From the NCBI RefSeq assembly GCF_024713945.1, contig NC_134678.1, positions 6,138,001 to 6,202,000 of the forward strand: a stretch of DNA of 64,000 bases, given 5' to 3'. Shown one piece after another: positions 20,982-30,057 of the stretch. How positions within the stretch are numbered: the stretch's first letter is position 1; every line of letters starts with the position of its first letter. The position numbers and the translations under genes were made by a program. The DNA comes from Dermatophagoides farinae (lineage: Eukaryota; Arthropoda; Arachnida; Sarcoptiformes; Pyroglyphidae). Under the pieces are notes generated by a model. That model was given only the letters and a program-made list of their open reading frames with translations. It made no database searches and was not told where the DNA came from.

Positions 20982-23868
20982 ATGGATGAACTTCTTGAAA
21001 CAACTAAAGAAAATGTTCAACCCTTGCGTCAAGGAAGAAAAATAGAAGAATTAAAAGCAACATTGTCCACTGACATAATTGAAAATAATAACCGACGTGA
21101 AATGATTAAACAGTAAGTTTGTGGATCACTGAAATGGATTAATCCTTTTTTGATTGAATATTTTATTTGTATAGAAAATTCGAAAAAGATATCAAACAAT
21201 CAAGCAATGATGATGATGAACTTTTCGAAACGTATGCTAAATACATTGAATGGATCCAACAAAATTATCCGCGTGGAGGCAAAGAAATAAAATTCTCGGA
21301 GATACTAGAGAAATGTATCAAAACATTTTTCAACAAAAAACGATATCAAAATAATGAGCGGATGCTATCAATTTTTCTTTGTTACACCAACATCGTCGCC
21401 AATCCACAGGATGTTTTTAAAGTTTTTTACAAGCAAAATTTTGCAAAAAAATTATCCACTTTTTATATTGAATGGGCCTACCTCTTTGAAATGCAAAATA
21501 AATACAAGCAAGCTATACAAGTTATAAAATTAGGCATTGAAAATGAAGCTGAACCATTGTCCCGTTTGAAGCAAATATTGAATGATCTTGAAGTTAGAAC
21601 AATGCGTTTTGTTATTTCAAATCCTGAAGAACCTGTGAGTGAGAGAAAAGCATTAAATAAATTGAAAACAATAAAAGATTCAGAAGGCAAATCGTCAGCC
21701 CCTGTAAAAAGAACATTAATTGAAGATAATAATGGCATTGATAAAATATTTTCTGATAATATTCCTAAAAATGATAATGTACCAGTTAAAATCTATACAG
21801 AAAATGAAACTGCTTCGCACCCACCAGTTGATAATGATAATGAAGAAATAAATAAATTCTATTTCAATCAAAAATTAAAAGAAAATGAGATGAAAACCCA
21901 TCAATGGAAAGGGAACAAACTCGATATTAAAAAAGCACAAACAAAAAATATCGAAAAATTTGAAATATTTTGTGATTCTAACAATGATATTGCTAAAAAT
22001 ACTCATTCAGATGAACCGAAATATCCCGTCGTGATTTTTGGTGATAAAGAAAAATTGAAAGGCTGGATCTTGTACGATCGATTCGATGAAATATATCGCA
22101 ATGGAACAGAATATTCTCTAGAAGAAATCAAGTACCAAAAATGGGTTGAAGACCAAGAATTGAAAAAACAAAAACCAAATGCTCCTGTTGTTGATCTAAA
22201 AAATTCGGAACCAGAAACCGCGAAATTATTATTCAGCGATACAAAAAATTTATCGCAAATGATTTCTTCATTATTCAATGGTACATTGTGCAAAACAATG
22301 AATCAGACCCATTTAGAAAGATCACCAACTACGCAAGAAAAATTTGAAATATTTCAAGATGATCAAAAAAAATTGGGCTCAACCTTTAACGAAAACAATG
22401 AATTAAAATCTTGTTCATCATCTACGCCTTTTCAAAACAAGACTTTAAAATTACAACAAAATCTAGCCATGCTACCATTAAATAATAAACCTAATTATGT
22501 TGATGGAATTACAGCCAAATTAAGCCCTATTGTAGAATTAAGTCGTGAAGAATATAGTAAATCATCGTCATCTTCATCATCATCATCATCATCGTCTGGT
22601 ACCATCATGAGCAGTCTTACCACCAAAAAAGTCCTTCTTTATGATAAAATTTATCCATTTGATTCTTATAATCGAAAAAAAATACTATCAGCCATTTCCG
22701 ATCCTGTCGAATTTCGCATGGGTTATTATAAAAAAAATCAGATACTTCCTGCGTTTAATTTATATCAATTTTTTGAATTTTTTGGCCAAAATTATATTAT
22801 TGATAGTGGGTGTAAAAGTAATACTAACGAATTCTATGTTTTTGAAAGATTATCAAATGATTTGGATATGATTACGGGCAATTCAAAACGTTTCATAAAA
22901 TTGTCTCGTTGTCTGGATTATTGGGAATTCTACATCTATGATGAATTGAAACGACGACTATTTCAGAATAATTGCGGCACAGACATTGTAAGATTTTTGA
23001 AATATAATTTTAAATTAAAAAAATTTTCATATTTATTCATTCTTTCGATTATAGGAAATATCGGTGTTATCATTAGATCGGATCATTTTCTATAGTAATG
23101 GTTATATATCTTTTTACAACGATGTCGATTGGAATTTTTCCATCCAAAACTTGATGAAAACACTTGATTGTAAGCAAAGCAAATTTCCTGAAATATTCAT
23201 AGCACTTGTTGCTTTAGAATTGATATTGATAATCAAAAAATTACATGAATGTGGTATTATTCATGCGAATATTTCAATCGAAAATGTTATTTTATCTTCA
23301 ATGTAAGTATGCAAAAGTTTGATTTTTCATAGCCTTTCAATTTTGTCATTACTTATGTTTTAAGTGACCAAGACGATATCAATGCGTTGCCGAAACAAAC
23401 ATCTATTAAACTAATAGATTTTTCACAAGCGATCGATATGAAAGTTTTGCCTGATGATGTTACATTCGACATTAATACAATTAAAAATCATGATGATAAT
23501 GAAGTATTCTGGGAAATTTTACAACCGAAATCTTGGAATTATCAGGTATTATTTTTGTCATTGTTTTGAAAACTTTTTAGTTAATTTCATTAAATTTTCA
23601 GATCGATTGGATTGGCTTCTTGAATTGTATCCATATGATGGCATTTGGTTTCCGATTGAAAATCAAAAAACAAAACCAGGTCATAGTAATGGAAAATTCT
23701 TTTGATCACAACCTATCTATTCTGAATCCAATATTTAATCAACTTTTAAATTTGGCTGCCAATCAGAAACCAAATCTTGACGTTCATATTACGGAATTGA
23801 TCAATTTCATCAAATTAAATACCAACAAAGTAGAATGGCAAAAATTTGATTTCAACTTTCTCAGTTAA
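20982..23868 (+). CDS. BUB1B: BUBR1-like (MadBub) spindle checkpoint protein with degenerate kinase
   Basis: Mitotic checkpoint complex subunit that inhibits APC/C-Cdc20. Exons 20982..21112, 21175..22987, 23055..23302, 23365..23545, 23602..23868; 2640 nt, 879 aa. Residues 9-17 are TKENVQPLRQGRK in register, the KEN box and flank of vertebrate BUBR1. Next comes the Mad3/Bub1 TPR domain (YAKYIEWIQQNYPRGGK through FYIEWAYLFEMQNKYKQAI). Mid-protein there are two FxIFxD segments resembling ABBA motifs (KFEIFCDSNND, KFEIFQDDQKK) and a GLEBS-like Bub3-binding stretch (GTEYSLEEIKYQKWVEDQE). The C-terminal kinase fold has WEFYIYDELK and WNYQIDWIGF as in BUB1, but the catalytic loop reads HANISIEN, with Asn instead of the catalytic Asp, and the DFG-equivalent reads DFS. 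I infer a pseudokinase, as in BUBR1. Confidence 0.9.
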
Positions 23869-23953: not shown

Positions 23954-26430
23954 TCATATATCCACATTAATTTCAACACGAGATAGAATTTTCTTTTGAT
24001 TATTTTCATCTTTGATTTGTTCGTATGTTAATAACGAAACACCAAGTTGATCCTCCTGTATAAATAAAAATTTTTGAAATTTTGTGGAAAAAAAATTTGA
24101 TTTGATTCTTGACTTACTTTTGAAAATGGTTGTGCCATTTGTTTGAGAAATTTTCTGGTTATCTGTGTAGATTCTTCGATACTCAAATTTAATACTCCTT
24201 TGCTCATATTTGATTGAATCCATTTCGGTAATTTTTTTAGCTTATCTTCTCTGGCAAATCTCTGAAAATAAAAGTGACAAAAAAGGTTTAAATTTAGACA
24301 TTTTATCCTATATATATACATGATATTTATATACCTTATCGGCAAAACACATAATACCATAATCAGTCTTGCCTCGAACTGCTCGACCAACACATTGAGC
24401 AGCATGTCGCATAGCATCGAATGTTAAGAAATCGCTTTCTTTTATCTGATAATTATCACATAAATATTCAAGTCGAGCTTTTAAGATTCTCGATTGAGTG
24501 TAGACAAAAGGAATGCCAAACATAATCACACATCTTCCTTTGTGATGGTCAAAATCGATTCCTTCGGAAATTTTACCACGAGCAACAGAAAGAAGCACCG
24601 CACCTCTACCATTTTCACAGGCACGAACATAATTGTTGAGCGCCAAAGATGTTTCTGAAGCATCTTGAGTTTCAATGAAAAGCAGCTTGTTCTTTTGAAT
24701 AGAATCAATGATACCTTGTTCATACCAAGATGCAATTATCTGTTCCATATAAATATAGCTTGTAAAAAAACAAACGATTCCATCCGGAACAATGGCAGAC
24801 ATTTCGACCAAAAGAATGCCGTAATTACGTATTACTGACATATCATTACGGGTTTCAAATTTGGATGTCATAGGAACTTGATCATTTCCTTTAGTCACAA
24901 TCAAAGGACAAATACATTGTCGATGTAAGCTCATGGTGAAAGTTGCAGCTACAATAGGATTGAAATCTAGCATTTTAGGATACATTTCAATAGGTGACAA
25001 AGTTCCCGATGTAATTATTACAGATTGAAATCTTTCAAAAACTGGCTTAATTGCTAATGAGGCATCCAAACAGCTGAAATGAAGAATAGGGTTCGGCACG
25101 TTAGGTGTACGATCTTCGAACGGTTCAATGATGATGGTGAATCCCCTTAAATATGTGCTAACTAAAGTAGCGAAATTACATAATAAAGTTAAAGGAGTAA
25201 AATCGGTAATATTATTCACTTCAAGAGTTCGAATTAACGATTGGATGCGTTCGGAACAAAATCTCAAAGGTTTTCGATCAATGGTCATTTTGTTATGAAT
25301 ATCTTTCAAGAATGCGGCTGGACTTTCTTTTACTACATGTTGAATTCTCAGACGTAATTTCATATATTCAAGAAGATATTTAAGGAATCGAATAAAATTT
25401 TCCGCTTTACGTATATTTCCCGGTAGGGCTTCATTCAGAATGTCACCAGGTAGAATAGGATTTGCCAAGAATGTATCGGTCTTTTGGGCTATATAAGCTT
25501 CACGAAGCCCCTCAACCAATCTATTATATTCGGTTTCAAGTTTGTTTTCATCAACTTCTTTGATCTTTTGGATTTCTTCTTGTAGAGTAGTTATATTAGA
25601 TTGACACTTTTGCAGAATCTTTTTATTTATGGTAACACTCATCGATTCGATGCATACATTGTCAATATTATGTGCTTCGTCGAAAACGATAACAGAACTT
25701 TTTGTTAACTCTTTGGACACGAGTTTGGCGATTTTTGGGTCCAACAGATAATAATAACTGTAGACGATTACATTGGCATAAGATAAGGCCCCGCGAGCCA
25801 AGAAATAAGGACAATATCCCATTTTTCTTCCCAAATCTTTAAGATCATCAATGTTGTAAATGCCATTTGGAAAGACGAATTCGCGGCCTTCATTTTCAAA
25901 TTTTTCAAAAAAACTACACAGTTTACTTGAATCATCGCGGTTCCTCTGTCGTTTATGCGATGCAGTCATACTAAAACATAAACCATCAACAGCTTTTCCT
26001 TCTTTTTCTTTGCTAGCGATCGGATGAATGCAAAGATTTTTTCGCGAAGTCAAACACAAACCAACAAGTGCATCATCATTATTAACTTCTATGTAATATT
26101 CATGTAATTTTCGTAATTCTTCAACGACCTTTTCGATTTCCGGTATCGTACGCGAACAATATATTAGCTTTTTCAATGAATTTGGATGTTGTTTCAGATA
26201 TGCCACAATCAATGATAATAATGAAGTAGTTTTACCGGTACCCGAAGGCATTTCCAATACCCCATGGCCTTTGGCGTCCAGACATTTTTTCAGATGACAC
26301 ATATAAGAGTATTGTTCTGGATATATATAATTATAAGGAAAATAAACATCCAATCCATCTATCTTTAGCCTAGGAATATATTGATAATAATAAAGGTTAG
26401 ATTATGAATTTTCAAAATTATTTACCTCAT
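23954..26430 (-). CDS. ERCC2: TFIIH helicase XPD (ERCC2)
   Basis: 5'-3' iron-sulfur DNA helicase of TFIIH, needed for nucleotide excision repair and for anchoring the CAK module. Exons 26426..26430 (5 nt, ATGAG), 24335..26369, 24118..24261, 23954..24055; 2286 nt, 761 aa (human 760). Motifs: Walker [13 protein letters not shown], the Fe-S cysteines in [10 protein letters not shown]-like, [14 protein letters not shown] and [10 protein letters not shown] segments, [28 protein letters not shown], and the helicase motif VI block [18 protein letters not shown]. Similarity to human XPD is very high throughout. The 5-nt first coding exon supplies Met and part of Arg, restoring the family start [14 protein letters not shown]. 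It is convergent with the BUBR1-like gene (85 bp) and divergent from GTF2H5. Confidence 0.96.
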
Positions 26431-26608
26431 TTTCGATTTTCAATGATTCAAAATGTCGCGTGCAATATTTTTCACTATATTCGATTAATGGTATATTTGA
26501 ACGGCATGTATGAGTTAATAGAAAAAATTAACAAAGCATGTGAGAGCTAAAACATTTTATTTAGTTTTGACAAGATACATAAAGTTGAATTTATTTATTT
26601 TTTGGGTG
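26431..26608. promoter_or_regulatory. 178-bp bidirectional promoter of XPD and GTF2H5
   Basis: Only 178 bp separate the start codons of two genes for subunits of the same complex. Both promoters and 5' UTRs must fit here or extend into the coding regions. No TATA box is clear; the sequence is AT-rich, with AATATTTTTC near 26464. A shared promoter region is inferred from spacing alone. Confidence 0.6.
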
Positions 26609-26821
26609 ATGGTTCAAATCCAAACTGGAATTTTGGTTACTTGTGATCCTGCAATGAAACAATTTTTGCTTCATCTGGATGAGACTAATGCATTAGGTCA
26701 ACGATTCGTCCTGCAAGATCTCGATGCCACTCATTTGTTGATCACTGCCGAAATATTGACTGTGTTGAAAAATCGAATTGATGATTTGATGGATCATTTT
26801 TCGTTTGTTGAAACTAATTAA
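26609..26821 (+). CDS. GTF2H5: TFIIH subunit 5 (p8/TTDA, GTF2H5)
   Basis: Small stabilising subunit of TFIIH that binds p52 and stimulates XPB. A single exon of 213 nt encodes 70 aa (human 71 aa). The protein matches the family throughout: GILVTCDPAMKQFLLHLDE, then NALGQRFVLQDLDATHLLI, then LKNRIDDLMD. The ATG at 26609 gives the normal N-terminus (MVQIQTGILV); longer in-frame reading upstream has no similarity and is probably 5' UTR. It sits 178 bp from XPD on the opposite strand and its stop codon is followed 12 nt later by the ATG of ZNHIT1, so the two are likely on one mRNA. Confidence 0.95.
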   Translation: MVQIQTGILVTCDPAMKQFLLHLDETNALGQRFVLQDLDATHLLITAEILTVLKNRIDDLMDHFSFVETN

Positions 26822-26833
26822 TTTTTATTAAAA

Positions 26834-27394
26834 ATGTATAAAAATAGCGGCAAATCATCATCCAGAATTTCTATTACTCGTAAACAATATAGAATTCTGG
26901 ATGAAAGTACTAGAAATCGAAGAAACCGGCAACATATTGAACAATTAGAACGAGATAATTTTCATGAAGATCCACATAGTAATTTGGTGATGCATAAAAA
27001 AGCACCCAAATTCGAAGATCCTACCGCACTCAATAATAATAGTAGTACAAATATCACTCCCAGACGTGTGAATGCTTACCGATCACGAATATTCACATTA
27101 AGCACATTGATCGAAGAAAATTCACGACTTTCAACGCCAAATTATTTATCGATCGCTACACGTTCGCTGAATAATTATCCGAAAAGAAAACACAATTCAA
27201 ATGATGATAAACGACAATCACAATTATCTAGCACATATTTTCCGCATATTGAAATTCCTTCGATCAAACGGCATTTTTGTAGTGTATGTGGTTTTAAAAG
27301 TAGCTACACTTGTATCATATGCGGTTTCCGTTATTGTTCATCGCATTGTTTGCAGTTACATGTCGAAACACGTTGTCTTAAATGGACTGGATGA
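26834..27394 (+). CDS. ZNHIT1: Zinc-finger HIT protein 1 (ZNHIT1, SRCAP/SWR1 subunit)
   Basis: Subunit of the SRCAP/SWR1 remodeller that exchanges H2A.Z into nucleosomes (yeast Vps71/Swc6 homologue). Single exon of 561 nt, 186 aa, longer than the 154-aa human protein because of a Ser/Asn-rich insert in the middle. The N-terminal block RRNRQHIEQLERDNFHEDPH matches RRINRQLEALENDNFQDDPH of human. The C-terminal HIT zinc finger is complete: CSVCGFKSSYTCIICGFRYC, then CLQLHVETRCLKW. Only 12 nt (with no AG that could serve as a splice acceptor) separate the GTF2H5 stop from this ATG. AATAAA-type signals follow at about 27466-27490, none between the two ORFs. Confidence 0.95.
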   Translation: MYKNSGKSSSRISITRKQYRILDESTRNRRNRQHIEQLERDNFHEDPHSNLVMHKKAPKFEDPTALNNNSSTNITPRRVNAYRSRIFTLSTLIEENSRLSTPNYLSIATRSLNNYPKRKHNSNDDKRQSQLSSTYFPHIEIPSIKRHFCSVCGFKSSYTCIICGFRYCSSHCLQLHVETRCLKWTG

Positions 27395-27612
27395 ATAATG
27401 ATAATATTTTATAATCTAATCTAATATTTGTATAAAAATCTTAATTCTATATTTTCTTTGTTTTTAAATAATAAAAAATAAATAAATAACTATAATTTTG
27501 TCATAATTTTTTTTCCTGGGAAATGTATCGTATCGTTTATCATGGATAGACACACACACACACACGAGTTCAATTAGACTCATATTTGTTTTGGATTTTA
27601 TTCACACAACCG

Positions 27613-28312
27613 ATGGCAAAATTGATTTCGAAAAAATCAATAAAAATGTGCATTTTTTGTGGACACGAAAATTTGTCAATACTATCACAGGTGAGTGTCA
27701 TTATTTTCGATTAATCAATTTTTATCCTGTCATCATCAATTTTATTTTGTCTATTAGAATGATCAATTTATGTTAATCAAAGATATCAAACCGGCAACAG
27801 CTCATCATTATTTGGTCATACCAAAAGAACATTATTCCAATATTAAATATTTGAATCGTCAACAAATACCAATGAGTAATTATCTTATCTAATGAAAAGT
27901 GTAACCAAAAAAAAATTCCATATTTCTTATTTATCATTATAGTTGAAGGATATGAAACAAATGGGCTTAGATTTCATGGAAAAAAATGTTCCAGAATTCG
28001 ATAGAAATAATTTACGGTATATTCATTTACAACAATATTTTTACATTCAATAATTGTATATATTTCTTATAGATTAGGATTCCATTGGGCACCATTCAAT
28101 TCAATCGACCATATTCATCTTCATCTTCTTTATCCATATGAACAAATGAATTGGTTACAAAATTTAATATTTAGACCGAATTCCTATTGGTTTATTGAAG
28201 TATGTTTTTTTTTTTTTTTGATTAATAATGAATAATCATCATCATCGTTAATAATTCTACATATATTTATATATAGGTTGATGAAGGAATAAAATATTTA
28301 CAAAGCAGATAA
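27613..28312 (+). CDS. HINT3: HIT-family nucleotide hydrolase, HINT3-like (one phase conflict)
   Basis: Histidine-triad hydrolase of adenosine phosphoramidates and acyl-adenylates. Exons by similarity: 27613..27690, 27758..27875, 27943..28016, 28073..28199, 28277..28312. The N-terminal zinc/fold motif CIFCGHEN, LIKDIKPATAHHYLVIPKEH, the histidine triad HIHLHL and the C-terminal SYWFIEVDEGIKYL all match HINT3. The start could be 27613 or the in-frame ATG at 27646, next to CIFC. The exon lengths sum to 433, one base too many: exon 2 ends ATGA before GTAATT, whereas exon 3 must begin in phase 0 to read LKDMKQMGLDFMEKN. A downstream acceptor at 27969-27970 is in phase but drops ten conserved residues. 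Sequence error or an unusual junction is possible. Confidence 0.8.
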
Positions 28313-28844: not shown

Positions 28845-30057
28845 ATGAAATGGTACATCCAAAATTATAATAATAAACAAAAACATGATCAACATGTCGA
28901 TAGTCTTTTATCTACTATCGATGAACAAGCTATAATCTCTCGATTAATATCCGGTACAAATAAAAATCATCATCATGAATCATTAATCAATAAAAAAATA
29001 AGAAAAAATCATTATAATTATCATAATCGAAAGGAAAAACGTTTCTTCACTAGTCTCTGTATTGTTACATTCATATTGATACTTTTAATATTGATTTTGA
29101 GTAATAATTTCAATGTGATTTTACATCATCATAAATTCATATGGCACAATCGAAGATGTAATGAAAATAATGAAACCGAAATGATTCATAAAGAAAGCCA
29201 AAAAGTGCTTCCACATTGTATAATCGTTGGTGTTCGTAAATGTGGCACTAGAGCTTTATTAGAGTTTCTTGATATTCATCCACTAATCACCAAAGTGGTA
29301 AATGAGATACATTTTTTCGATGATGAAAAACGTTTCAATCTAGGTTTAGAATGGTATCGGCAACAGATGCCCGTTACTAATCAATCGAATATTGTGATTG
29401 AAAAAACTCCAGCTTATTTTGTTACCGAATCTGTTCCGGAACGGATATATGCTATGAATGCATCTATTAAAATCATTTTGATCGTCAGAGATCCTGTCAC
29501 ACGATTGATTTCTGATTACGCTCAACTAGCCAGTAATAAAGCGAAAAAAGTTCGACATGTAGAAACATTCGAAGAAGCTGTCCTTTATCCTAATGGTAAA
29601 GTAAATTCCAGTTACAAAGGAATTAGAATCAGCATGTATGCTGTTTACTTTTCGCGATGGATTAAGGTTTGATTTGATTATTTTTTTTTCTCCTGATAAC
29701 TCTCTATTATTCATTTTGATTCAATTTTTAATATCTAGCTTTTCTCCAAGAATCAAATACATGTAGTGGATGGCGATCAATTTGTTTATGATCCATTGGC
29801 AGAACTGAAAAAAAATCGAAACATTTCTTGGCTTACCACATTTAATGCGACATGAGGATTTTATCTATAATGTTACCAAAGGATTTTATTGTATACGAAT
29901 GGATAATAATATGGAAAAATGTCTCAACAAAAACAAAGGTCGTCGACATCCAGACATAAATCCAGTTATAATTAAACGTTTACGGAAATTCTATGAACCA
30001 TATAATAAATTTTTCTTCAGTTTGGTAGGAAGACGTTTTTATTGGCCAAATCGATGA
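28845..30057 (+). CDS. HS3ST5: Heparan sulfate 3-O-sulfotransferase (HS3ST5-like), one base out of frame
   Basis: Type II Golgi enzyme that transfers sulfate from PAPS to the 3-O position of glucosamine in heparan sulfate. Exons 28845..29666 and 29739..30057. A cytoplasmic His/Asn-rich tail precedes a signal anchor at about residues 68-86. The PAPS-binding loop is IVGVRKCGTRALLEFLDIHP, where the family usually has KGG; then EIHFFDDE, IEKTPAYFVTESVPERIYAM, IKIILIVRDPVTRLISDY and GFYCIRMDNNMEKCLNKNKG, all closest to HS3ST5. Exon 2 reads HVVDGDQFVYDPLAELKK up to a run of eight A (29808-29815), after which the conserved continuation IETFLGLPHLMRHEDF is in the next frame; seven A would keep it open. 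Total length is 1141 nt, one extra base. Likely sequencing error, otherwise a recent disruption. Confidence 0.85.

Follow-up and report, generated by a model that had tools for sequence, protein, structure and literature searches.

How is a gene expressed when its start codon lies 12 nt beyond the stop codon of the gene before it, and do the two share one mRNA? The question is raised by a locus of Dermatophagoides farinae, in a window that comprises the whole 64,000-nt stretch of DNA analysed here (contig NC_134678.1, positions 6,138,001 to 6,202,000). The species agrees with the group 2 allergens of this genome, of whose seven matches two were compared: one (L016) differs from a Der f 2 chain at one of 108 aligned residues and resembles Der p 2 less, and the other (L015) has only moderate similarity to Der p 2. 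Of 38 protease matches one was compared, and this cysteine protease proved to be cathepsin B. A sequence-only reading of this DNA had placed complete GTF2H5 and ZNHIT1 ORFs 12 nt apart on the same strand, and the coordinates, the frames and the gap all bear it out. The features of the locus are as follows, in positions of the window.

26609..26821, + strand: GTF2H5 (p8, TTDA, Tfb5) ORF, a TFIIH subunit of 70 aa and the first cistron, identified by Pfam PF06331 and human p8
26822..26833, + strand: intercistronic gap of 12 nt, TTTTTATTAAAA, with ATTAAA at 26827-26832 and with neither AG nor AATAAA
26834..27394, + strand: ZNHIT1 (p18Hamlet, Swc6) ORF, an SRCAP/SWR1 subunit of 186 aa and the second cistron, identified by Pfam PF04438 and human ZNHIT1
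27470..27486, + strand: three AATAAA hexamers, starting at 27470, 27477 and 27481

GTF2H5 and ZNHIT1 in the mite and the fly

The first ORF matches the Pfam Tfb5 profile (E 4.5e-24) and residues 1-67 of human p8/GTF2H5 (E 6.2e-23). The second matches the Pfam zf-HIT profile (E 3.8e-8) and, in two parts that correspond to the N-terminal region and the zinc finger, human ZNHIT1 (E 1.3e-23). Each has a single match in the genome (62.4 Mb in 22 contigs), and no relatives of either protein were found in the viral contigs. The locus consists, then, of a p8/Tfb5 orthologue and, downstream of it on the same strand, a ZNHIT1/Swc6 orthologue, with a short gap between them that offers no intron acceptor.

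Further along the same strand, just downstream of ZNHIT1, there is an exon of a DcpS_C/histidine-triad gene (27770-27889; DcpS_C E 4.8e-9), which is unrelated to the HIT zinc finger, its name notwithstanding. At 28845-29672, also on the + strand, a sulfotransferase-domain protein is encoded (E 2.9e-15), in which a hydrophobic N-terminal stretch can be made out by eye.

The sequence-only reading was aware of no earlier description of these two genes as linked, and in this it was wrong. The source that both PMC7013941 and PMC9514664 cite for the bicistronic locus of Drosophila is Herrera-Cruz et al. 2012 (J Biol Chem 287:33567). Fly Tfb5 (Dmp8) and CG31917 (Dmp18, the Znhit1 homologue) are reported as a bicistronic locus (PMC7013941, PMC9514664), a review asserts the linkage of p8 and p18 for all arthropods (PMC7013941), and a 2008 survey counts TFB5 (73 aa), upstream of CG31917, among the conserved uORFs, the most distant EST coming from Bombyx (PMC2276209). 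Since the survey's evidence for the pair extends only to Endopterygota, it is the sentence in the review that carries the claim for all arthropods. Vertebrate gene names conceal this fly literature, and our literature search found no paper that names ZNHIT1 together with GTF2H5. Nothing on mites was found among the best-listed results on mite operons or polycistronic mRNAs, and in the C. elegans GTF-2H5 paper (PMC8617094) the words “operon” and “cistron” are absent.

The mite locus resembles the Drosophila one in holding the same two orthologues with p8 upstream (fly order as given in PMC2276209), and likewise in the shortness of the first ORF, which has 73 aa in the fly versus 70 aa in the mite. 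The bicistronic transcript is reported in the fly, whereas in the mite we infer both the shared mRNA and the way in which it is translated. A p8-ZNHIT1 pair with a bicistronic mRNA is already known for arthropods, and the mite locus is its orthologue. It lends direct chelicerate sequence support to the published arthropod-wide linkage, which would predate the split between chelicerates and insects unless it has arisen twice.

Fly mutants show how far the two products depend on one another. A P insertion inside fly p8 is reported to have no effect on the other protein (PMC7013941), p18 protein is unchanged by western blot in the testes of p8 insertion nulls (PMC5090060), and the Tfb5 transcript is still present in flies with a 224-bp Dmp18 deletion (PMC9514664). 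Taken together, the insertion and deletion results indicate that the fly can make each of the two products independently of the other, and the p8 insertion result fits an independent route to p18.

What does this mean for the mite? The dicistronic mRNA that the sequence-only reading proposed agrees with the published fly orthologue, but for the mite itself the argument for it is one of homology, and the internal ZNHIT1 promoter that was offered as an alternative still stands beside it. On the strength of orthology and the fly data, we settle on one mRNA for both ORFs, on which ZNHIT1 would be reached by reinitiation or internal initiation, perhaps alongside an internal promoter. In all, we consider it very likely that the mite locus is orthologous to the bicistronic Tfb5(p8)-ZNHIT1(p18) locus of arthropods, with one mRNA from which ZNHIT1 would be translated by one of these two routes.

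Reading the intercistronic gap

On this account, a single capped mRNA would begin in the 178 nt between GTF2H5 and the neighbouring XPD gene (see below), would carry p8 and then ZNHIT1, and would end near the AATAAA cluster. The first hexamer of the cluster starts 76 nt past ZNHIT1, and by their position the three are likely, as putative poly(A) signals, to serve the shared mRNA.

Could the two products instead be separated by splicing? The sequence-only reading had pointed out that the gap contains neither an AG nor an AATAAA. Both are indeed absent from it, but ATTAAA, a common variant poly(A) signal, is present. The AGs nearest to the gap start at 26716 and 26846, and no AG, such as a spliced-leader operon needs for its acceptor, starts within 26717-26845. 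Nematode-type spliced-leader operons resemble the mite pair in their close same-strand spacing; they are resolved by spliced-leader trans-splicing, and a gap that lacks an AG acceptor leaves the mite pair with no trans-splice site directly before ZNHIT1. We therefore reject a spliced-leader or cis-spliced ZNHIT1 mRNA with its acceptor in the gap. Three AGs inside p8, at 26682, 26695 and 26716, could as such be acceptors. As for AATAAA, its absence is real, but for the coding regions it is a nearly weightless argument, because codon-randomised versions mostly lack the hexamer too (5000 of 5000 versions of p8, and 90.6% of 5000 versions of ZNHIT1).

The ATTAAA bears on the alternative that survives best, in which the two genes form separate, overlapping transcripts. 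ZNHIT1 would then have a promoter of its own inside the p8 coding region, the p8 transcript would have its end within ZNHIT1, or already at the gap's ATTAAA, and the tight spacing would reflect compaction alone. Of the 156 12-mers in the window whose A/T make-up equals that of the gap, just 7 (4.5%) contain the hexamer, which speaks for such a reading. However, 105 of 1329 all-A/T 12-mers also contain it; with an expectation of about 5-8% for A/T-only 12-mers here, chance could account for the ATTAAA, an origin that is possible without being the rule. Separate transcripts would also agree with FlyBase, where a monocistronic 3' transcript usually has a promoter that is downstream or external, and a monocistronic 5' transcript uses a poly(A) site further upstream (PMC4528330), and with the persistence of p18 protein in fly p8 insertion nulls (PMC7013941, PMC5090060). 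Against this, the fly orthologue is reported to be bicistronic (PMC7013941, PMC9514664), and an arthropod-wide linkage, as stated in the review, suggests that selection keeps a shared unit. We regard fully separate transcripts as unlikely.

Close same-strand spacing can be seen elsewhere in the mite genome. FlyBase pairs such as snapin/CG9958 and MOCS2 also have two ORFs on one processed mRNA, though their genes are unrelated to p8 and ZNHIT1. At the snapin-like locus of the mite (L024:632-1725, − strand, contig C3), 59 nt separate a snapin-like ORF (1384-1725) from the ferric-reductase-like ORF downstream of it (632-1324), with the ORF starts as read. The product of fly CG9958 is a methyltransferase (PMC2276209), so the mite has not retained the snapin/CG9958 pair in its fly form. 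This second close same-strand pair counts in favour of separate transcripts, as compaction alone may bring genes close together in this genome, and it suggests, as far as a single further locus picked on other grounds can, that such spacing is not unique to p8-ZNHIT1. For the MOCS2 comparison, inspection by eye of the sequence immediately preceding the MoaE gene on contig C4 gave no recognisable MOCS2A. FlyBase release 6.04 contains 159 dicistronic pairs, and at loci with only polycistronic transcripts the gaps range from -34 to 319 nt (PMC4528330), which makes 12 nt an ordinary spacing.

Translation of the second cistron

How would ribosomes reach ZNHIT1 on the shared mRNA that we favour? Ordinary scanning would give translation of p8, and ZNHIT1 would come mostly from ribosomes that start again once the short p8 ORF has been translated or that enter internally, possibly with the assistance of shorter mRNAs whose 5' ends lie inside the p8 ORF. 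Leaky scanning past p8 is unlikely, given that the p8 AUG has G at both -3 and +4 and that AUGs are not depleted within the ORF: it contains six more, two of them in frame and four out of frame, where 3.9 out-of-frame AUGs are expected. None of the small ORFs opened by these internal AUGs overlaps the ZNHIT1 start, so reinitiation is not blocked by them. For reinitiation of the classical kind, however, 12 nt is a short distance. With regard to internal entry, the predicted fold of 26740-26900 is unremarkable (z -1.55, with 14 of 200 shuffles as stable), and we have dropped the idea of a structured entry site for ZNHIT1 on this ground.

The two ORFs lie in one frame. Between them there are four sense codons and a single TAA, and since that TAA is the sole stop, readthrough could yield a p8-ZNHIT1 fusion protein. 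However, a shared frame has a one-in-three chance of arising, ZNHIT1 starts at an AUG of its own that has A at -3, the length of p8 is close to that of human p8 (70 versus 71 residues), and the fly papers, in their passages on this locus, make no mention of a fusion. Altogether, readthrough is highly improbable as an explanation of the locus. That an assembly or annotation artefact joins the two genes is scarcely credible, as both ORFs are open, have one match each and lie within an 8.39-Mb contig, and the fly papers place the same pair on one transcript (PMC7013941, PMC9514664).

XPD and other TFIIH subunits

The p8-ZNHIT1 locus is otherwise ordinary for its kind, but it has a neighbour that the sequence-only reading missed. 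XPD, which encodes another TFIIH subunit, is head-to-head with GTF2H5.

24308..26430, − strand: main coding part of XPD/ERCC2, identified by its match to human XPD and by Pfam DEAD_2, HBB and Helicase_C_2
26430-26428, − strand: ATG of an XPD mini-exon, which is followed by a 56-nt intron (26425-26370) and by the long exon from 26369
26431..26608: putative shared promoter of 178 nt and 26% GC, bounded by the start codons of XPD and GTF2H5, which point away from each other

The long XPD frame matches residues 2-684 of the human XPD chain (E 0), and its N-terminus is read across the splice between the mini-exon and the long exon; judged by eye, C-terminal exons probably continue below 24308. A protein with Mad3/BUB1 homology region 1 is encoded at 21158-23092 on the + strand (E 5.5e-32), convergent with XPD.

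With divergent starts only 178 nt apart, the two TFIIH subunits may share a promoter region, a function that their position suggests. XPD is a trichothiodystrophy gene, and TFIIH has nine subunits besides p8. If genes were placed at random among the 10,684 annotated in D. farinae (PMC8487952), a TFIIH subunit would neighbour GTF2H5 with a chance of about 8 in 10,000, a figure to be read in the light of an adjacency that was noticed after the fact. The p8 protein is reported to interact with p52 and XPD (PMC2576456). No description of an XPD/GTF2H5 (TTDA) adjacency or shared promoter was found among the best-listed literature results, and PMC6852550, one of those listed, concerns other genes in the part that bears on this subject.

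It is tempting to go further and to see a three-gene module in the mite lineage, with XPD transcribed divergently from the p8-ZNHIT1 dicistron out of the same 178-nt promoter. We put this forward tentatively and think it rather doubtful. If it were true, the smallest TFIIH subunit, the XPD helicase and an H2A.Z-loading factor would be transcribed together. In Drosophila, Xpd is presumably located elsewhere than the Tfb5/CG31917 locus. The head-to-head arrangement with GTF2H5 is seen in the mite, while Drosophila CG31917 is at 25C1 (PMC2276209). The XPD adjacency is a modest new lead, which offers a test of the co-regulation of TFIIH subunits in mites.

Does the adjacency belong to a wider grouping of TFIIH genes? 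The best matches of p52 (Tfb2) are on contig C1 and the best match of p44 (Ssl1) is on contig C7. Both of the two further subunits tested are therefore unlinked to the locus, and as they lie on other contigs, nothing points to TFIIH genes being clustered in general; wider clustering was rejected.

The search for these subunits also brought up Ssl1-, DEAD_2- and Tfb2-like matches on the small contigs C14 (L026), C15 (L006) and C17 (L011), in stop-free frames of 428, 910 and 681 aa, respectively. The Tfb2 copy on C17 (L011, G000:C17:210290-211735) is very divergent, matching p52 from the PDB with E 5.7e-5, and the G+C content at these loci is 0.31-0.36. These matches may come from another eukaryote in the sample or from divergent paralogues, and the large contig C1 also has a weak Ssl1 match (L027), which favours paralogues.
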